Source: an archaeon
GTDB lineage: Archaea; Nanobdellota; Nanobdellia; SCGC-AAA011-G17; GW2011-AR20
NCBI GenBank assembly: GCA_002688355.1
Contig: NZCT01000027.1
Span: 1-33,326 of the forward strand
DNA: 33,326 bases
Direction of reading: 5' to 3'
Both the position numbers and the translations under genes were made by a program. The notes under the pieces are model-generated. The model saw nothing but the letters and a program-made list of their open reading frames with translations. It was not told where the DNA came from and ran no database searches. Positions 6,271-27,779 of this stretch are shown here, one piece after another. Numbering within the stretch: position 1 is the first letter of the stretch; each line of letters begins with the position of its first letter.

Positions 6271-6657
6271 ATGAAATATGAGAGTATTAACTTGTACTTT
6301 AAAAACAAAGATAGATTTGGATATGTTACTAATGATTGGATTGATCTAATTTCTAAAATAGATCAGGAATTTATAGTGGGAGAGTTTGGACTTAAATATC
6401 CTGAAGGTTTCATTCGACCAAGAAATCCACCTGCAGACTATCCTTCTAGAATTAAGTTTGATAGAGAGCAGATTAAATCAATAGGCCATATTTTGGCATA
6501 TCAAGAAGAACCTGCTATAAGTTGTTTAATAATAGATAGAGTAGTTTGGAATGAACAATTCAGAGAAGTTTCCGATAATTTACTAGAAATTGTTGGAAGT
6601 CATTTATGTGAAATATACGAAATGAGCCCGACGGGATTTGAACCCGCGACCACCTGA
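6271..6657 (+). CDS. Hypothetical protein running into the tRNA gene
   Basis: A 128-residue reading frame that I do not recognise. The first 116 or so residues have normal composition (DRFGYVTNDW, GEFGLKYPEGF, acidic and aromatic residues) and look like a real protein. The last residues, MSPTGFEPATT, are the antisense translation of the tRNA-Lys gene, and the stop at 6655-6657 is inside it. So the gene either truly overlaps the tRNA 3' end by 35 nt in convergent orientation, or its original end was lost when sequence next to the tRNA changed. The gene may be a remnant. Confidence 0.45.
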   Translation: MKYESINLYFKNKDRFGYVTNDWIDLISKIDQEFIVGEFGLKYPEGFIRPRNPPADYPSRIKFDREQIKSIGHILAYQEEPAISCLIIDRVVWNEQFREVSDNLLEIVGSHLCEIYEMSPTGFEPATT

Positions 6658-6710
6658 TTAAGAGTTTCATCAATTTTTCAGATGCTCTAACCAAGCTGAG
6701 CTACGAGCCC
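6623..6710 (-). tRNA. tRNA-Lys (CUU) with a 13-nt intron
   Basis: Read on the minus strand, the acceptor stem GGGCUCG pairs with CGGGCUC (two G-U pairs), followed by discriminator A at 6623 and no encoded CCA. The D stem is GCUC/GAGC. The T arm contains GGUUCAAAUCC. The anticodon stem is UCUGA/UCAGG. The 20 nt between its strands are 13 too many; the normal seven-base loop CUCUUAA, with anticodon CUU, is found at the 3' side. The extra bases at about 6665-6677 therefore fall between positions 31 and 32 (or 30 and 31), not at the usual 37/38 site. Canonical 37/38 splicing would remove the invariant U33. Confidence 0.85.
6665..6677 (-). other. tRNA-Lys intron at position 31/32 (non-canonical)
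   Basis: The minus-strand sequence AAAATTGATGAAA separates the anticodon stem 5' strand from the loop CUCUUAA. Because an A is present at both junctions the cut can also be placed one base earlier (6666-6678) with the same mature tRNA. Splicing by the archaeal bulge-helix-bulge endonuclease is assumed; I did not find a clear strict bulge-helix-bulge fold by eye. Confidence 0.65.
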
Positions 6711-8129: not shown

Positions 8130-8744
8130 TCAACCAAATATATCACCAACTTTTTCTCTAAGCTCCTTATCCATCTCAGAAATACTTTTTGTTCCATAAA
8201 GATCCATAGTTGTCTTATATGATAGATGTCCAAGGACTTTTTGAACTACTTCTAAGCTTAACCCCTTATCTTTCAATATTCTAGCACAACTATGCCTTAA
8301 TATGTGAGGGTTAATATTTTTCAATTCAGGATTGGGATTATGTAATTGAGCTTTTTTCCCTGCTTTTGCAACAATTCTATTAATTTCTGTTGGTGATATG
8401 TACCCAACTTGATTCAGGCTCGATACCGCAGGAAATAGATATCCTTGTTTTGCATTTTGTAGTACATATTGTATATACATTTTTAAATCCTCAATTAATT
8501 GATCTGAAAAAATGGTAGCTAGTCTATCGATTTGTTTTTTACCCAAAATCTGAATTTTATTAGAGTTAAAGTCAATATCTTCTATTTTTATCTTGGCTAG
8601 TTCAAATCTTCTTAATCCACAATATGCTAGAATTTTAATAATGACCTTATCCCTAAGTTTATCTGTACTTTTTATCAATAATTTGATTTGATCTTCAGTT
8701 AGATTAAATTGGCTTCTTGAATGTCCCTTTTTTGATATCACCAT
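8130..8744 (-). CDS. Tyrosine recombinase, catalytic domain only
   Basis: A 204-residue integrase of the phage/Xer family. All six catalytic positions are visible: Arg45 in GLRRFE, Lys70 in the beta-hairpin LGKKQ, His147 and Arg150 in HILRHS, His173 in LGHLS, and nucleophile Tyr183 in DLYGT. Known Xer proteins are about 280-300 residues and have an N-terminal SAM-like core-binding domain; here only about 15 residues precede the catalytic fold, so that domain is missing or supplied by another protein. A TATA-like ATTTAAATAAAC lies about 25 nt upstream. An inverted repeat and further GTTAC copies lie just upstream. Confidence 0.85.
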   Translation of the reverse strand: MVISKKGHSRSQFNLTEDQIKLLIKSTDKLRDKVIIKILAYCGLRRFELAKIKIEDIDFNSNKIQILGKKQIDRLATIFSDQLIEDLKMYIQYVLQNAKQGYLFPAVSSLNQVGYISPTEINRIVAKAGKKAQLHNPNPELKNINPHILRHSCARILKDKGLSLEVVQKVLGHLSYKTTMDLYGTKSISEMDKELREKVGDIFG

Positions 8745-10871: not shown

Positions 10872-11096
10872 TTATAAATTATTCTCAAATGTTAATGATT
10901 CATTTTCTTCATCATACTTGATAATAACTTCGTATTCTTTTATTAATTTCAAAGCTATATATTTGTCATAATGTTCATCATAAACCATGTTTTCCTCCAC
11001 TTTATCATTTCTTTGAATTACTCTATCTATCTCCTTGGGTGTCTTAACTTTCAGTAGAGTAATTATAACTTGATCTAAAAATTCTCTATCTTGCAT
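10872..11096 (-). CDS. Hypothetical small acidic protein
   Basis: A 74-residue protein, MQDREFLDQVIITLLKVKTP onward, with a helix-rich first half and a strand pair at the end (EYEVIIKYDEENESLTFEN). No family is recognised. Its ATG lies inside the last codons of the upstream coiled-coil winged-helix gene (overlap 11 nt), so it is very likely translated from the same message and may be a partner of that regulator. Confidence 0.5.
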   Translation of the reverse strand: MQDREFLDQVIITLLKVKTPKEIDRVIQRNDKVEENMVYDEHYDKYIALKLIKEYEVIIKYDEENESLTFENNL

Positions 11097-11667
11097 TCTC
11101 TTTTTTCCTTTTCTTTTCTTGTTTTAATTTTAAATTTTGTATTAAGCCTTTTCCAAATGATGTTAAAGAAACAAAAGTTTGTTTCCCCTTTCTTTTTTTA
11201 GAAATTAAACCTAGCGTCGATAAAACTGTTAAATATTCTGATAAAGTTGATCTTACAGTTTTGTATTTCTTTTGAGGATAAATTACTTTTGATAGAGATT
11301 TAATTGATATGTCTTCAGTTTGTAATTGTTGGCTTAATGAATAAATTGTTTTAAACAAATCTATTTGTGTTGATGTCAGAGATGATAATAATTCATTTGT
11401 GTATTCATTATTTACAGTTGATTCTTTTTTTGTCTCTTTAAATTGCTTTAATTCGTTGATATTTGGACCAATGAGATTAATTTGTTTATCAAAACTATCT
11501 AATTTACCTAGAATAAAGCTGTCAGAATTTTCTAATTTGTTTACTTTGTTATTTATGTCTTTAATGTCCTTTTTGATTAAATTAAAGGATATTTTAAGAT
11601 CATTTGTTAATTTTTCTAGTTTTTCCTCATGTTTTTCTCTTTTTGTTCTAAAAAGCCACCAAACCAT
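11086..11667 (-). CDS. Coiled-coil winged-helix protein A
   Basis: A 193-residue protein from the ATG at 11667; a TTG at 11685 is the longer option. The N-terminal half (about 8-85) is Lys/Glu/Leu-rich and reads as coiled coil. After a short linker a winged helix starts at ELLSSLTSTQIDLFKTIYSL, with TVRSTLSEYLTVLSTLGLIS as recognition part and KKRKGKQTFVSLT as wing. The tail is very basic (KQEKKRKKENAR). It shares order and motif spacing with protein B at 11812-12372 (NEL..LT....F..IY.L, then TIR/TVR and ISKKR), so the two are likely paralogs. A TATA-like ATATTTATATGAT lies at 11686-11698. Confidence 0.6.
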   Translation of the reverse strand: MVWWLFRTKREKHEEKLEKLTNDLKISFNLIKKDIKDINNKVNKLENSDSFILGKLDSFDKQINLIGPNINELKQFKETKKESTVNNEYTNELLSSLTSTQIDLFKTIYSLSQQLQTEDISIKSLSKVIYPQKKYKTVRSTLSEYLTVLSTLGLISKKRKGKQTFVSLTSFGKGLIQNLKLKQEKKRKKENAR

Positions 11668-11718
11668 ATTCTTTATAAAATTCAATCATATAAATATTTT
11701 ACTATTTTATATATAAGT

Positions 11719-11767
11719 TTCGTCGAACATTACCGACGCGTCGTAGACGTCTACGACGTTCGACGAA
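11719..11767. repeat. GC-rich nested palindrome cluster between the paired regulators
   Basis: A 49-bp GC-rich block in AT-rich surroundings. Outer arms TTCGTCGAAC (11719-11728) and GTTCGACGAA (11758-11767) are exact inverted 10-mers, and each contains its own 9-nt palindrome (TTCGTCGAA, TTCGACGAA). Inside lies the perfect 18-nt palindrome GTCGTAGACGTCTACGAC (11740-11757). GACGCGTC (11735-11742) is a third palindrome overlapping the inner one. It lies about 20-70 bp upstream of the promoter of regulator A and downstream of regulator B. It could be a multi-site operator, a recombination or partition site, or the basis of a cruciform or RNA hairpin. Confidence 0.7.
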
Positions 11768-11811
11768 CAGTAACTGATTCTTAAATAAACTTAATTTAAC
11801 GATCGAATTAT

Positions 11812-12372
11812 TTATGCATCAAAAAGAGTCCTTTGATCATTTTTGTTTCTAATGGAGATTAAACGAGAAATTAGAGCTATATCTCTAAATTCAGGCACAA
11901 TTGAGAGTTCAATTTTCTTATTAAATGGCCTTTTTTTAGAAATAGGAAGTCCTTTTGAGATTAGTGAATTGATATATCCCCTAATTGTGATTTCTGAGAC
12001 TTTAAGATTGTTAGAAATATCTGAAAGATTTATTGATCGTCCAAATTCTTCCTCTAAAGTATAAATTGAGACGAAAATAGAGAATTCTCTATCTGTAAGG
12101 CCCTCAAATAGCTCATTTAGCTCCTCTTTGACTAACTTGACTGACTTGTGATCATCGTTGTTGATCGTTGATGATTGTTGTTGATCGTTGATGACCCCTT
12201 TATTTCCAGTGGAAATATCAAAAAAAAGTTCTTTTTCAGATTTGTTTTTTAATTGGGTTAAAACCTCATTAACACGAGATTCTAGCTGTTTTAGAGTATT
12301 TTTGATTGAATTGACTTCTTCCTTGACTTTTGAGAATGAGTTCTTTATCTTTTGATTGTTGTTGATTACCAT
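11812..12372 (-). CDS. Coiled-coil winged-helix protein B
   Basis: A 186-residue protein with a coiled-coil N-terminus (about 8-48), a Gln/Asn/Asp-rich low-complexity linker (about 60-78) encoded by repeated DNA, and a C-terminal winged helix: ELFEGLTDREFSIFVSIYTL, then the HTH NLSDISNNLKVSEITIRGYI, then SKGLPISKKRPFNKKIELSI. The TIRGYINSLISKG part closely follows archaeal regulators that pair an LT-x-x-E helix with this HTH. Related to protein A downstream. The start codon sits inside a 15-nt palindrome. Candidates are a sequence-specific repressor or a replication/partition protein of an integrated element. Confidence 0.6.
   Translation of the reverse strand: MVINNNQKIKNSFSKVKEEVNSIKNTLKQLESRVNEVLTQLKNKSEKELFFDISTGNKGVINDQQQSSTINNDDHKSVKLVKEELNELFEGLTDREFSIFVSIYTLEEEFGRSINLSDISNNLKVSEITIRGYINSLISKGLPISKKRPFNKKIELSIVPEFRDIALISRLISIRNKNDQRTLFDA
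12157..12194. repeat. Tandem 18-bp repeat inside regulator B
   Basis: GTTGTTGATCGTTGATGA occurs exactly twice, at 12157-12174 and 12177-12194, a 20-bp period that breaks the codon phase. Relatives of the core GTTGTTGAT also occur at about 12358-12366 and 12389-12397, around the start codon of the same gene. The pattern resembles iterons or repeated operator sites, but it may be only low-complexity coding sequence. Confidence 0.55.
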
Positions 12373-18435: not shown

Positions 18436-18643
18436 AAGAATTAATATATTTTATATTATATTATTATTTAAGTTTATCTAATATATATAATATATATAAT
18501 AAATCTTATAATTAAAAATATATATTTTATAGTGTTACTATTTTAAAGTGCAGTTGCAATGAAGGGGATGATTTTGGAATTTTTTAGAAAATATAGTTGC
18601 ATAGGAAATATAGGTCTTGGTGTTTATATTATAATTAAATAAT

Positions 18644-18677: not shown

Positions 18678-19877
18678 ATGAAAAAGGGGTTGAATGATTT
18701 TTTTGAAAATTACTTAGGAAAAGATCCATTATTTTTGGATAAGAAATGTTTACAGGCTAATTATACTCCTAATAATATTCCTCATAGAGAAGAGCAAATA
18801 AATCAATTAGCTTCAATATTAGCACCTGCGTTAAGGATGGAAAAACCTTCTAATGTGTTCTGCTATGGGAAATCAGGAAGTGGAAAAAGTCTTTGTAGTC
18901 AATATGTTTTAGATCAAATTTTAGATGTTGCTAAGAAAAAAAAATTGAATGTAAATGGAGTTTATTTAAATTGTAAATTAAAGAAGGTTTCAGATACAGA
19001 ATATAGATTATTAGCCGCTTTGTTAAAAACACTGGATGTTGAGGTTCCAACTACTGGTTTACCGACTCAAGACGTTTATAAAATGTTTACTGAGAAAATT
19101 GATAAGGAAGAACAATTGTTAATTTTGATATTGGATGAGATTGATCAGTTAGTTAATAAAATTGGGGATGAGATTTTATATAATTTGACTAGGTTAAATT
19201 CAGAGTTAAAGAAGTGTCAAATAATTATTGTTGGAGTTTCTAATAATTTAATGTTTACAGATAACCTAGATCCCAGGGTTAGAAGTAGTTTAAGTGAAGA
19301 AGAAATTGTATTTCCTCCGTATAATGCATTACAAATTCAAGATATTTTGAAAGAAAGAGTGAAGGTGGCTTTTAAGAAAGATTCAATTGAAAATGGGGTT
19401 ATTGAAAAATGTGCTGCATATGCTGCTAGAGAACATGGGGATGCTAGACGTGCGTTAGAACTATTAAGAGTTTCTGGGGAATTGACGGAACGAGATGGAA
19501 AAACTAAAATTAAGATTAAATATATAGATGATGCTGAGGAGAAGATTGAGAAAGATAGGGTGTTAGATGTTGTTAGAACTCAGCCAAAACAAAGTCAGAT
19601 TGCTTTGTACTCTATAATGAGAACTTCTAAGAATAGTCAAGTTTTTACTGGTGATATTTTTGAACACTATAAAGAAGTTTGTAATAAAGTTGGTTTGAAG
19701 CCATTGACGCAGAGAAGAATTAGTGATATAATTTCAGAATTAGATATGTTAGGAATTATTCATGCTAAAATTGTTTCTAAAGGAAGATATGGAAGAAGTA
19801 AAGAAATTAGTGTTGATGGTGTTAAACATATTTCAACTAAGATTGATGATATTTTGAAAGAGAGTTTGGGGTTATAA
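18678..19877 (+). CDS. cdc6: Orc1/Cdc6 replication initiator
   Basis: A 399-residue archaeal Orc1/Cdc6 protein, an AAA+ ATPase that binds origin ORB sites and loads the MCM helicase. Walker A is GKSGSGKS at 64-71, Walker B LILDEID at 150-156, sensor 1 GVSNN at 186-190, and the sensor 2 helix is in HGDARRALELLR (about 264-275). The C-terminal winged helix (about 310-399) contains TQRRISDIISELDMLGIIHA and the wing KGRYGRSKEI. It lies directly downstream of the candidate origin. The stop overlaps the next start as TAATG, so it is translationally coupled to the PolD small subunit. Confidence 0.95.
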   Translation: MKKGLNDFFENYLGKDPLFLDKKCLQANYTPNNIPHREEQINQLASILAPALRMEKPSNVFCYGKSGSGKSLCSQYVLDQILDVAKKKKLNVNGVYLNCKLKKVSDTEYRLLAALLKTLDVEVPTTGLPTQDVYKMFTEKIDKEEQLLILILDEIDQLVNKIGDEILYNLTRLNSELKKCQIIIVGVSNNLMFTDNLDPRVRSSLSEEEIVFPPYNALQIQDILKERVKVAFKKDSIENGVIEKCAAYAAREHGDARRALELLRVSGELTERDGKTKIKIKYIDDAEEKIEKDRVLDVVRTQPKQSQIALYSIMRTSKNSQVFTGDIFEHYKEVCNKVGLKPLTQRRISDIISELDMLGIIHAKIVSKGRYGRSKEISVDGVKHISTKIDDILKESLGL

Positions 19878-22814: not shown

Positions 22815-25800
22815 ATGAATAATGTTCAAGAATATTTTGATGAAATAGAAAAAAATGTAAAGAAGGTTTATGATTTAGTTGAAAAGGTTAGAAAGAAAGG
22901 ATTAGATCCTGTTGATGAGATTGAGATACCCTTGGCTAGAAATATGGCTGAGAGAGTTGTGGGGTTAATAAGCGCAGTTGCTCCTCAAATTAAAGACAGT
23001 AATTTAGTTCCTAGAATACAAGAACTTGAGGGAAAGTATGGGAAACTGGATTGGAGAGTTGCTTTAACGGTTGCTGAGGAAGTTGCTAAACAAGAACTTT
23101 GTAAATTCGAAAATAAGGAAGAGGCAATGGAAGTTGGAATTAGGGTTGGAATTGCTTATGTTACTAATGGTGTTGTTTCTAGTCCTTTAGAAGGTTTTAC
23201 ACATTTACAGATTAAACAAAGAAAAGATGGGAAAGAATATTTTGCTTTGTTTTTCTCTGGACCAATAAGAAGTGCTGGTGGAACTGGGGCTAGTGTTGCT
23301 GTTATAATTGGAGATTATGTTAGAAAGAAAATGGGTTATAGTGAATATGATCCTAGTGAAGAAGAAGTTAAGAGAATGTCTACGGAATTAATTGATTATC
23401 ATGAACGTGTTACAAATTTACAATATTTTCCAAGTACAGAAGAAACTGAATTTATGATTAAGAACTTAGCTGTACAGATTGATGGAGACCCTAGTGAGAA
23501 ATTTGATGTTAGTAACTATAAAGATATTGGGAGGATTGAGACAAATAAAATTAGAAGTGGCGTTTGTTTAGTTACTGGAGAAGGCTTATGTCAGAAAGCG
23601 CCTAAACTTTGGAAACAATTGGGAAAATGGGGTAGTGATTTTGATATGAGTCATTGGAAATTTTTAGAAGAATTTATTAAATTACAAAAGAGAATTAAGA
23701 GTAAGAAAAGTGTTGATGAAGAAAGTGATGAGAAAATTAAACCAGATTTTACATATATTAAAGATTTAGTTGCAGGTAGGCCTGTATTAGCACATCCTTT
23801 AGTTAATGGTGGCTTTAGATTAAGATATGGAAGAGCTAGAAATACTGGATTGAGTAGTTTAGCTATAAGTCCATGTACTATGAAAGTTTTAAGTGATTAT
23901 ATTGCTGTTGGTACACAAATTAAAATTGAAAGACCTAGTAAAGGAACTTCGTTATCTTCTTGCGATAGCATTGATGGACCAATTGTTAAGTTAAATAATG
24001 GTGGTGTTATGTTTTTTGATTCTGAGGAGAAGGTAAACAAATATTACAAAGATGTTGAGGAGATTATTTATTTAGGGGATTTGTTAGTTCCTTATGGAGA
24101 TTTTTTTAATAGAGCACATCCTTTAGTTCCTTGTGGTTATAATGATGAATATTGGTTAAGAGAATTTGAAGCTCCTATAATTAAAAAATATGATGAATTA
24201 AAATTTAAGGAAGTTGCTAAGGTTTTGAATGTTAAAGAAAAATTAATTAAAGATATTTTTGCTAATAACGAAAAGGTTGATGTTGATTTGAGTATTTTAA
24301 TTTCACGAAGATTTAACGTTCCATTACATTCTAGATGGACATATTATTGGGGAAGTATAAATAAGAATGAGTTTGTTAGTTTAATAGAATGGTTAAGAAA
24401 AGCTCAAGTTTCCGAAGATAAAGTTGTGTTACCTTTTGTTTATGATTTAGGAAAAGATAATATTGATCCTAAGAGAGTTTTAGAATTGATTGGGATTGAA
24501 CATCAAGTTATTGCTAAAGAAAATGTTATTATTTCAGGAGATGATGCTCGAGCATTTATTTTTAGTTTAGGTGGTTTGGTTGATATTAAAGGGATTTTAG
24601 AAATTGCTGAGAATAATGAAAATGTTTTAGATTCTATAAATAAAATTTGCGAAGTTGAGATTAGAGATAAGTTGGGGACATTTATTGGAGCTAGAATGGG
24701 TAGACCTGAAAAAGCTAAGAAAAGAAAGATGAAAGGTAGTCCTCATGTTTTATTTCCTGTTGGAGAAGAAGGTGGAAGATTAAGAAGTTTACAATCAGCA
24801 TTACAAAAAGGAAAAGTTAGTGGAGATTTTCCAAATTATTTTTGTGATAAATGTCAAAAGTATTCTGCTTATGGAAACTGTGTTTATTGTAATACTAAAT
24901 TAAAATTAAAATATTTTTGTAGAGAATGTAATAAATTTTATGAAGAGGATAAATGTAATGAACATGAAAGGGTTAATGGTTATAGAAGAGATGAAATAAA
25001 TATTAGAGAATATTTAGATGATAGTTTGAAGTTACTTGGATTGAGTAATTATCCTGAATTAATTAAAGGAATTAGGGGAACTAGTAATAAGGATCATATT
25101 GTTGAGCATTTGGGTAAAGGAATTTTGCGTGCTACTCATGGATTAGAGGTAAATAAAGATGGGACTACTAGATTTGATGCTACTGAAATGGCTATTACAC
25201 ATTTTAGATGTAAAGAGGTTGGGATTTCTGTTGAGAAAATTAAAAATTTAGGTTACGAGAAGGATATTAATGGTTTAGAAATTACTAAAGATGATCAAGT
25301 TATTGAGTTAAAGTGTCAAGATATTATTTTACCTGCTTGTGATGAAGCTTTAGAAGATGGTGCTGATAAAGTTATGTTAAAACTTGGAAGTTTTTTGGAT
25401 GATTTATTGGTTAAATTTTATAAGATGAAAAAGTTTTATAATTTTAAAGATAGAGATGATATTATTGGTCATTATGTTTTGGCTATTGCACCCCATATAT
25501 CTGCAGGTATTGTTGGAAGGATTATAGGATTTAGTAAAACTCAAGGATTTTATGCTCATCCGTTATTTCATTGTGCTGTTAGAAGAGATTGTTTTGGTTA
25601 TGACACCTTTATTCCTGTTTATGATGGTAAATTATGGAAAAACGTTAAAATAGGAGAAGTAGTTGAAAAGTTGAATCCAAGTGTTGTTGACTCTTTTGGA
25701 ACAAAAGCTAAGAAAGTTCAGAATTTTTGGACTTTAGGTTATAAAAATGGAAAAGTTTGTAAGGTTAAAATAAATGAATTTACAAAGCATAGGAAATCTG

Positions 25801-27779
25801 AATTGTTAAGATTTAAACTTGAAGATGGAAGATATATCGATGTAACTAAAGAACATAAATTTTGTATTCTTGATAATGGTAAAATTACAAAGAGGAAAGC
25901 ACATGAACTGAAAGAGAAAGATTTTCTTGTTATTCCTTCTAAATTTTCTATTAAGGAAATAGATATTGATTTTATTAACCTAGAAAATTATTTTTTAGAT
26001 AGAAATGATGTAATGGTTAGAAATATTTCTACTTATTTGAAAAAATTTATTGTTAAAATAGGTGGTATTGCTCATGTTGGTAGAATTTTAAAGTTACATA
26101 AATCAATTTTACCTAATTTCCTTTCTAGGAACAGCTTTCCTTTACCTTTTTTATTAGTGTTACTTGCTTTATTTAGTTTAAATCTAAGTGATCTTCCTCA
26201 ACAAAGAAGAATATCAATAAAAAGAGATAATGTTAAATTACCTTATAAAATTCCACTGAATAATGATGTCTTGTATTTAATTGGTTTATATGTTGCTGAA
26301 GGATACTGTAGAAAGAATGAAAATAAGAAAAAAGGATTTTATCAAATTGGTATATCTTGCACAGAAAAAGAGATAAAGGAAAGTATTGTTAAGACTATGA
26401 AAAGTTATTTTGATTTGAATCCTAGCGAAATTAAAGAAGATGGTTTTACATTTTCAAGTAAAATATTATATGAATTTTTTACTGGAATTTTGAAATGTGG
26501 TTCTAGGGCAAAAGAGAAGAGAATACCAGAGATTATACTTAACTTACCTAAAGAGAAATTAGCATCTTTTTTGAAAGGATATTACGATGGAGATGGAAGC
26601 GTTAGTAAAACTGATTTAAGAGTTACATGTGATAGTATTAGTGGTGGTTTATTATCTGATTTAGAATTTGCATTAAAACGGTTTGGGATTTTTGTAAAAA
26701 GATATACCTATGCAAAAGAACCAGGGCCAATAGTTAGGGGATTTTATATTAGAAAGAAAAGAAAAATTCCTGTGTTTAAAATTACAAAACTCTTGATATT
26801 AAGTGATTATTGTAAATTGTTTTATGATAATATTGGGTTCGGTTTAAAGAGGAAACAAATTATTTTAGAATATCTTTTGAAATCAATGAAACCTTTGGGA
26901 ATGAGAATAAAGAAGGATGGTGATTTTGTTTTGCCAAAGATAAAATCTATAGAAAATTTAGATAAAAATCATAGTTATTGTTTAAATGTCGAAGGTAATA
27001 TTGTTCTTGCTAATGGAATTATGACTGGTCAGTGCGATGGAGATGAACTTGCGTATACTTTATTATTGGACGCTGTGATGAATTTTTCAAGAAAATATTT
27101 ACCTTCACATAGGGGAGCTACTCAAGATGCACCATTAGTTTTAACAACGAAAATAATCCCTGGAGAAGTTGATGATATGGTTTTTGATATGGATATTGCT
27201 GATAAGTATCCTTTGGAATTATATCGGGCTGCAGAAAAATATAAAATGCCTTGGGACGTTAAAGTTGAGCAGTTAAATTCACGTCTTGGAACAAAGGAAG
27301 AATATGGTCCTTTTGGATTCACTCATGATACTAAAGATATTAATGCTGGTGTTTTGTTTAGTGCTTATAAGAAATTGCCTACAATGAAAGAAAAAGTTTT
27401 AGGACAATTTGATATTGCTGAAAGAGTACGTGCTGTGGATCAAGATGATGTTGCACGTTTGGTTATTGAGAGACATTTTATGAGGGATATTAGAGGTAAT
27501 TTAAGGAAGTTTTCTCAACAAGGTTTTAGGTGTAGTGCTTGTAATGCTAAATATCGTAGACCTCCTTTAAGAGGATATTGTTTAAGTTGTAGTGGAAATA
27601 TTATTTTTACAGTTTCTTTAGGTAATATTGTTAAATATTTAGAAAGTACTTTGAGTTTGTCTGAAAAATATAATTTACCAGTTTATTTGAAACAAACTTT
27701 GAAGTTAACTAAAGAGAGAATTGAAAGTGAATTTGGTAAGGATGAAGATAGACAAGAGGGATTAGGTAAGTGGTTTTAG
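22815..27779 (+). CDS. polC: DNA polymerase D large subunit (DP2) with an intein
   Basis: A 1654-residue precursor of the polymerase D catalytic subunit; removal of the 481-residue intein leaves 1173 residues, close to other DP2 proteins. The N-terminal part has the conserved block FFSGPIRSAGGTGASVAVII. The central core includes LRYGRARNTG and zinc modules starting at Cys677 (CDKC...CVYC, then CREC). The catalytic aspartates are in CDGDE right after the intein. A C-terminal zinc module begins at Cys1573 (CSAC...CLSC). DP2 is a double-psi beta-barrel enzyme related to RNA polymerases. A TATA-like TTTTATATAAAT is about 30 nt upstream. The end overlaps the convergent TctA-like gene by 4 nt. Confidence 0.95.
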   Translation: MNNVQEYFDEIEKNVKKVYDLVEKVRKKGLDPVDEIEIPLARNMAERVVGLISAVAPQIKDSNLVPRIQELEGKYGKLDWRVALTVAEEVAKQELCKFENKEEAMEVGIRVGIAYVTNGVVSSPLEGFTHLQIKQRKDGKEYFALFFSGPIRSAGGTGASVAVIIGDYVRKKMGYSEYDPSEEEVKRMSTELIDYHERVTNLQYFPSTEETEFMIKNLAVQIDGDPSEKFDVSNYKDIGRIETNKIRSGVCLVTGEGLCQKAPKLWKQLGKWGSDFDMSHWKFLEEFIKLQKRIKSKKSVDEESDEKIKPDFTYIKDLVAGRPVLAHPLVNGGFRLRYGRARNTGLSSLAISPCTMKVLSDYIAVGTQIKIERPSKGTSLSSCDSIDGPIVKLNNGGVMFFDSEEKVNKYYKDVEEIIYLGDLLVPYGDFFNRAHPLVPCGYNDEYWLREFEAPIIKKYDELKFKEVAKVLNVKEKLIKDIFANNEKVDVDLSILISRRFNVPLHSRWTYYWGSINKNEFVSLIEWLRKAQVSEDKVVLPFVYDLGKDNIDPKRVLELIGIEHQVIAKENVIISGDDARAFIFSLGGLVDIKGILEIAENNENVLDSINKICEVEIRDKLGTFIGARMGRPEKAKKRKMKGSPHVLFPVGEEGGRLRSLQSALQKGKVSGDFPNYFCDKCQKYSAYGNCVYCNTKLKLKYFCRECNKFYEEDKCNEHERVNGYRRDEINIREYLDDSLKLLGLSNYPELIKGIRGTSNKDHIVEHLGKGILRATHGLEVNKDGTTRFDATEMAITHFRCKEVGISVEKIKNLGYEKDINGLEITKDDQVIELKCQDIILPACDEALEDGADKVMLKLGSFLDDLLVKFYKMKKFYNFKDRDDIIGHYVLAIAPHISAGIVGRIIGFSKTQGFYAHPLFHCAVRRDCFGYDTFIPVYDGKLWKNVKIGEVVEKLNPSVVDSFGTKAKKVQNFWTLGYKNGKVCKVKINEFTKHRKSELLRFKLEDGRYIDVTKEHKFCILDNGKITKRKAHELKEKDFLVIPSKFSIKEIDIDFINLENYFLDRNDVMVRNISTYLKKFIVKIGGIAHVGRILKLHKSILPNFLSRNSFPLPFLLVLLALFSLNLSDLPQQRRISIKRDNVKLPYKIPLNNDVLYLIGLYVAEGYCRKNENKKKGFYQIGISCTEKEIKESIVKTMKSYFDLNPSEIKEDGFTFSSKILYEFFTGILKCGSRAKEKRIPEIILNLPKEKLASFLKGYYDGDGSVSKTDLRVTCDSISGGLLSDLEFALKRFGIFVKRYTYAKEPGPIVRGFYIRKKRKIPVFKITKLLILSDYCKLFYDNIGFGLKRKQIILEYLLKSMKPLGMRIKKDGDFVLPKIKSIENLDKNHSYCLNVEGNIVLANGIMTGQCDGDELAYTLLLDAVMNFSRKYLPSHRGATQDAPLVLTTKIIPGEVDDMVFDMDIADKYPLELYRAAEKYKMPWDVKVEQLNSRLGTKEEYGPFGFTHDTKDINAGVLFSAYKKLPTMKEKVLGQFDIAERVRAVDQDDVARLVIERHFMRDIRGNLRKFSQQGFRCSACNAKYRRPPLRGYCLSCSGNIIFTVSLGNIVKYLESTLSLSEKYNLPVYLKQTLKLTKERIESEFGKDEDRQEGLGKWF
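25590..27032 (+). other. Intein with LAGLIDADG endonuclease, C-terminal Gln
   Basis: The intein covers precursor residues 926-1406. Block A starts with Cys926 (CFGYDTFIPVYDG). Block B has T-x-x-H in DVTKEHKFCI. The two LAGLIDADG helices are LIGLYVAEG (1155-1163) and YYDGDG (1256-1261), so it carries a homing endonuclease domain. The end is NIVLANGIMTGQ, with Gln1406 where Asn is normal and Gly where the penultimate His is usual; the next residue is Cys1407 (+1 nucleophile). It interrupts the active site, RRD|CDGDE. Pyrococcus abyssi PolII has a known Gln-ending intein in the same gene. Confidence 0.9.

Follow-up and report, generated by a model that had tools for sequence, protein, structure and literature searches.

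An iteron array and a gene-embedded origin recognition box at a probable chromosomal replication origin of a DPANN archaeon

Between two adjacent minus-strand genes of an archaeal genome, here denoted B and A, lies a GC-rich group of nested palindromes, and the question is what this element is for and which protein reads it. We analysed it within the window, the whole stretch of 33,326 nucleotides, and in the corresponding loci of relatives. An earlier note on this DNA, made from the sequence alone, had offered a partition-like centromere, a recombination site or an operator for the neighbouring proteins. The anatomy, conservation and uniqueness of the array, its co-variation with a helix of protein A, the codon constraint on an origin recognition box (ORB) in gene B and the skew extremes of relatives lead us to a reading that agrees with these proposals in part. 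We consider it quite likely that an array of five dyads, predicted to be bound by dimers of A, and the single Orc1/Cdc6 ORB within gene B are two cis-elements of one oriC.

A conserved array of dyads between genes B and A

The features of the B-A region are:

11086 to 11667, minus strand: gene A, 193 amino acids, probable start MVWWLF, encoding the predicted array-binding protein
11688 to 11717, minus strand: TATA-like elements (TTATATATAA / ATATTTATAT) that adjoin the downstream end of the array and form the putative promoter of gene A
11718 to 11768, minus strand: iteron array of five contiguous dyads of 9-11 bp, without gaps
11739 to 11758, no strand: exact 20-bp palindrome CGTCGTAGACGTCTACGACG, made of array units 2 and 3 plus one base on each side
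11812 to 12372, minus strand: gene B, 186 amino acids, encoding a coiled coil, an ORB-encoded linker (STGNKGV) with repeats, a winged helix and a C-terminal QRTLF

The spacer between the two genes measures 144 bp. Read on the minus strand from 11768 to 11718, the units of the array are GTTCGTCGAAC, GTCGTAGAC, GTCTACGAC, GCGTCGGTAAT and GTTCGACGAAA; the dyads are of the type GTTC-N3-GAAC or GTC-N3-GAC, and one or two of the five units are degenerate. The earlier note had placed an exact palindrome of 18 bp at the centre, which is exact as described and in fact 20 bp long. The other palindromes that it listed were all found: the 10-bp inverted arms (11719-11728 and 11758-11767), each with an inner 9-bp palindrome (TTCGTCGAA / TTCGACGAA), and a third, overlapping palindrome of 8 bp (GACGCGTC, 11735-11742). 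So was the contrast in composition with the flanks, the GC content being 52% in the array and 14% in the remaining spacer. That description is real and incomplete, leaving the five-unit array and the nearby ORB unmentioned. The length of the 20-bp palindrome alone is no argument, because shuffles of the AT-rich window matched or exceeded it in 7 of 40 cases. The features that stand above chance are the GC-rich clustering and, above all, the conservation of the array.

BLAST of the 66-bp element against its own 962-kb genome returned no second match, and the outer array unit is present at this place only in the same genome. The search for further copies that the earlier note had called for therefore yielded a unique element, and a dispersed repeat is ruled out, since the array is single-copy. 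Rfam reported no element at the array, its sole match in the window being a tRNA elsewhere (6623-6710, minus strand). This tRNA was found by Rfam and missed by ARAGORN and is 88 nt long, for which reasons it probably contains an intron.

Homologues of B were found in 88 of 145 relatives, and a scan of genome contigs with a narrow alignment gave ten named Woesearchaeota loci as the nearest named relatives. The array is kept at the same place among the 61 related loci examined, as the centromere or operator of the earlier note would have it. Ahead of gene A these loci hold 195 GTY..RAC dyads against 56 expected from shuffles (3.4-fold), an excess that is individually significant in 39 of the 61 loci and not significant in 22. 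Self-similarity of the array was maximal at a shift of 11 bp, and the same dyad and period measures were flat in control regions upstream of B and downstream of A. Searching with the 20-mer and allowing up to three mismatches, we found near-identical palindromes beside B homologues, in the same place, in five genomes that represent five families (G065, G083, G006, G068 and G075). Arrays of 9-12-bp units precede A in most lineages, with a word that is lineage-specific (CGTCTACGAAC, GTTCTACGAAC, GTTCACCGAAC, CGTCACTGACG, GTTACTAAC). The conserved entity is the array, rather than one fixed sequence.

In most loci the array lies at A's promoter, and the TATA box of A follows just downstream of it in most relatives. 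The position differs in subclades in which A (there called A') has the opposite orientation and stands tail to tail with B: there, GTTC/GAAC repeats lie within the linker-coding part of A', encoding for example ERSIVHERVQSFNRSNQSFMNVQSL, and two other families carry a repeated GVQTGVQTGVQT-type linker at the corresponding place. Since the repeats of the tail-to-tail loci are inside the A' linker, the element follows the locus, not one promoter. Behind the stop codon of B, the spacer of many relatives (L008, L011-L014, L017, L019-L024 and L031) repeats a separate motif, AACTCTCACTTTT, at intervals of 60-110 bp; its copies may be terminators or a further binding site.

The recognition helix of protein A and the array word

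The genes on either side of the array are paralogous, as the earlier note had said: HHalign of the A and B profiles gave a probability of 97% (E 5e-11), and both proteins are predicted to consist of a long N-terminal helix followed by a winged helix, consistent with the coiled-coil winged-helix type that it had named. Searches for sequence family names gave only weak, generic HTH matches for either. Protein A comprises a hydrophobic-basic N-terminus, a long coiled coil, a winged helix with the recognition helix at about residues 135-151, and a Lys-rich tail. In the AlphaFold model (pLDDT about 90 locally and 77 overall) the YKTVRSTLSEYLT segment is helical and belongs to the winged-helix domain. 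The best Foldseek match of A is TubR (E 3e-3), with generic MarR/ArsR folds scoring nearly as well, and the best sequence-profile match is AspA (E 1.4e-3), over 40 residues only and with a fold shared with generic MarR/ArsR proteins; TubR and AspA are both centromere-binding winged helices.

Both proteins also have conserved ends. The A homologues share the hydrophobic-basic N-terminus MxFWxFxKK (11640-11667, minus strand), which, at a guess from its sequence, might bind a membrane or a partner. The C-terminus of B and its homologues (11815-11835, minus strand) reads Q-x-x-L-F and resembles a PCNA-interacting (PIP) box, so that B might touch PCNA, again a guess.

The array word varies between lineages, and its variation follows protein A. 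Loci with more dissimilar array words also tended to have more dissimilar A recognition helices (r 0.64 between the two sets of distances, 52 loci, permutation p<0.0005), and a partial r of 0.56 remained once the overall divergence of A and B had been removed, a correction by which shared ancestry is reduced, not abolished. For the recognition helix of B the partial r was -0.12. When about 370 windows of 13 residues over A and B were ranked, the top-ranked all covered the YKTVRSTLSEYLT helix of A, a result that survived dropping GC-poor loci and thinning near-identical proteins; the leading co-varying positions include T141 and E144. Since the array word co-varies with the helix of A and not with that of B, the array is probably read by A. 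Thus the earlier proposal of a multi-site element read by the neighbouring proteins is supported as regards A, and B as the reader is not supported.

An origin recognition box inside gene B

Upstream of the array on the same strand, the coding sequence of B contains two further elements, and the initiator gene lies nearby:

12150 to 12193, minus strand: short tandem repeats, a TCATCAACGATCAACAAC-type unit twice, after the G-string of the ORB, putatively DUE-like
12194 to 12215, minus strand: perfect ORB, TTTCCACTGGAAATAAAGGGGT, inside gene B
18678 to 19877, plus strand: orc1/cdc6, the initiator gene, at a distance of 6.5 kb from the ORB and with the genes of PolD DP1 and DP2 behind it

The distance from array to ORB is about 430 bp in the window. 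TTTCCACTGGAAATAAAGGGGT agrees at every position with the common ORB motif used by Ori-Finder 2, TCCA[CG]T[TG]GAAA[TC][GA]AAGGGGT (PMC4164010). That program scans intergenic sequence only (PMC4164010) and would therefore miss a site inside a gene. The pattern TCCANNGGAAANNNNGGGG has a single match in its own 962-kb genome and matches 93 of 145 relatives, with almost no matches for a backwards control pattern. A perfect ORB is in or beside B in 72 of 83 B-bearing genomes of the same order, and 80 of the 88 ORB sites of that order are in or beside B. The perfect ORB in B is absent from the remaining 11 of 83; G018 carries its ORB beside cdc6 instead. In two other families the ORB is inside B in all eight genomes, which were chosen for carrying B.

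The codons that encode this stretch of B are fixed to the letters of the DNA motif: Ser is TCC in 59 of 60 cases (background 10%), and the two Gly codons are GGA in 60 of 60 (32%) and GGG in 59 of 60 (22%). The constraint stops at the end of the ORB, and the third base of the next codon is free. The ORB is the only one within 1.5 kb in 57 of 65 loci, all secondary sites share its orientation, and an inverted ORB pair flanking an AT-rich DUE is absent among the 65. Four loci of one family (L011, L012, L013 and L017, family f9) have a second ORB in the same orientation 326-348 bp upstream, just before gene B. The repeats that follow the G-string have a lineage-specific unit and exceed the 95% level of control segments in 62 of 69 loci. 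In the window the two copies of the repeat are read in different frames, suggesting that the DNA rather than the peptide is what counts.

The cdc6 gene was found 1-15 kb away in the checked genomes with full-length B on the same contig. An origin directly upstream of cdc6, as in Pyrococcus, was considered and set aside: the ORB-like sites just upstream of the gene (18530-18640; TGCAGTTGCAATGAAGGGG, TGCATAGGAAATATAGG) are degenerate, the best having three mismatches. A good ORB upstream of cdc6 was, however, seen in a few relatives (G018, G138 and G378). In the same gene cluster, the gene of the PolD large subunit DP2 (22815-27779) has an apparent intein, a long insert with in-frame continuation.

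Raw GC skew, both in the window and in 20-kb bins, is uninformative because of gene orientation. We therefore computed gene-strand-corrected skew at 4-fold sites in single- or long-contig relatives, covering about half to most of the contig and more densely around B; the window's own genome is too fragmented, so the skew evidence comes from relatives only. In G288, with its ORB at 313,178, the GC minimum (309,796) and the AT maximum (312,098) fall 3.4 kb and 1.1 kb from the ORB, and opposite extremes lie near the antipode. The GC minimum of G016 is at the start of gene B, and G304, with reversed polarity, has its GC maximum (300,496) 0.6 kb from the ORB (299,863). Extremes are weaker or 4-14 kb off in G002, G018 and G378, and by skew extremes gene B and the nearby cdc6 cannot be told apart. 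Around its whole chromosome G018 (L122-L141) shows a net strand asymmetry of one sign after gene-strand correction (GC -0.18, AT +0.19), and it might replicate in one direction from its single ORB.

The perfect ORB inside gene B makes this locus a probable chromosomal replication origin, as judged from sequence.

Alternatives and a proposed working

The array could be an autoregulatory operator of A and nothing more, A being a local transcription regulator whose proximity to the origin is incidental. It is confined to one place in the genome, it tracks the recognition helix of A and in most loci A's TATA box comes directly after it. Yet the tail-to-tail subclades have the same half-site repeats in the A' coding linker, not upstream of the start, B and A remain together with the ORB throughout the order, and the five to eight phased sites exceed a typical operator; we hold this explanation to be unlikely. 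Somewhat better placed, if still doubtful, is a role in replication initiation rather than segregation, the array being a helper-initiator site, a second half of the origin or a copy-control element acting by handcuffing. A single ORB lies 0.4-1 kb away, the array's 11-bp iterons are like those of plasmid origins, B has the PIP-box-like C-terminus, and Sulfolobus provides a case of an essential separate origin motif, ucm, to which a protein other than an initiator binds (PMC12141716). Against this, the likeness of A to centromere-binding winged helices is no weaker than its likeness to any initiator, and the distance between array and ORB is highly variable, unlike a rigid origin element.

Two further explanations were considered. 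The palindromes might act in RNA, as a hairpin, cruciform, terminator or attenuator between B and A, and the folding energy of this strand's RNA (-25.6 kcal/mol) is indeed somewhat below that of shuffles (z -2.2). But there is no T-run behind the array, the arrays of many relatives (L011 and L073, for example) consist of direct repeats without a comparable long hairpin, and the repeats co-vary with the protein helix, not as paired arms; compensatory hairpin changes were not seen in the arrays read. This makes an RNA element very improbable. Fainter still are the prospects of a dif-like recombination site or the scar of a mobile element. A tyrosine recombinase gene of the phage-integrase family (8130-8744) is 3 kb away, but copy number and word of the array vary by lineage and track A, unlike a strand-exchange core, and the loci read had no recombinase linkage, so that the recombination site suggested earlier is left without support.

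We favour the reading of array and ORB as two elements of oriC. Orc1 would bind the ORB within gene B and open the repeat region, while dimers of A would load side by side on the helically phased dyads next to A's own promoter. Such loading would both autoregulate A and build a compact complex, which, through the coiled coil and the hydrophobic-basic N-terminus, may mark the duplicated origin for anchoring or segregation, or control initiation. As the array borders A's promoter, autoregulation by A is likely, and plain autoregulation could account for much of the array. It is the repeats in coding sequence, the link with the ORB and the weak likeness to TubR and AspA that make us favour origin anchoring, segregation or initiation control.

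A Pfam scan of 19 window proteins revealed no ParA, ParM or TubZ motor and no partition NTPase, and no ParB, ParA, SegA or SegB gene was adjacent among the neighbours scanned. Tentatively, and with slightly less than even confidence, we propose for the whole class a DPANN origin in the form of a two-gene module: the ORB and unwinding repeats would lie in the linker of B, and a co-evolving iteron centromere bound by A, either intergenic or within the linker of A, the paralogue of B, would serve a motor-free anchoring or segregation without ParA, ParM or TubZ.

In the literature searched, which excluded subscription papers and preprints, we found neither a replication origin nor a segregation system described for Woesearchaeota and related DPANN archaea. 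The locus offers a concrete, testable origin candidate for a class of mostly uncultured archaea, inside a gene, where intergenic origin-finders skip it. The fast-evolving array, together with a named protein and the helix residues predicted to read it, makes the binding code directly testable. If true, the two-gene module would pair an embedded origin of the lambda-O kind, in a cellular chromosome, with an archaeal system of segregation or initiation control that had not been described before.

The origin of phage lambda lies within gene O, as repeats in that part of a DNA-binding protein's gene which encodes the linker, and O binds its own iterons. The present locus shares an origin sequence embedded in the linker-coding part of such a gene; here, however, the embedded site is one for another protein, Orc1, the array co-varies with A, and the chromosome is cellular. 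The plasmid centromeres tubC and parC are helically phased iterons beside the gene of a small DNA-binding protein, TubR or ParR. They have in common with our locus the phased array beside the gene of its predicted binder, TubR also being the top Foldseek match of A, whereas here no TubZ or ParM was found nearby, the locus is chromosomal and A has a long N-terminal coiled coil. The locus is not a member of the lambda-origin or plasmid iteron-centromere families, and only somewhat alike in its proposed working.

In Bacillus subtilis, RacA binds GC-rich inverted repeats (ram) near oriC. TubY binds membranes and DNA (PMC7762940). Both share with A an HTH plus a coiled coil, with no sequence relation shown, and the sites of RacA are scattered, in contrast to the single array here. 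AspA of pNOB8 is a winged helix with a palindrome upstream of its own gene (PMC5120986). The winged helix is shared, and AspA is the best profile match of A, but unlike the AspA-ParBA system and SegAB of Sulfolobales the locus was found to have no ParB, ParA, SegA or SegB adjacent, A has its N-terminal coiled coil, and there are phased short dyads instead of one 23-bp palindrome. Closest are the ORB-type oriC regions of archaea (Sulfolobus oriC1, Pyrococcus, haloarchaea), with which the locus shares an exact ORB with G-string, cdc6 nearby, one-sided repeats and, in relatives, skew extremes at the locus. It differs from them in that the ORB is within a conserved coding gene, mostly single and not part of an inverted pair around a DUE, and has a pair of winged-helix genes and an iteron array at its side. 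The candidate origin counts as a variant within the ORB type: most of the defining features are present, but it lacks the inverted ORB pair and its place in coding sequence is unusual.
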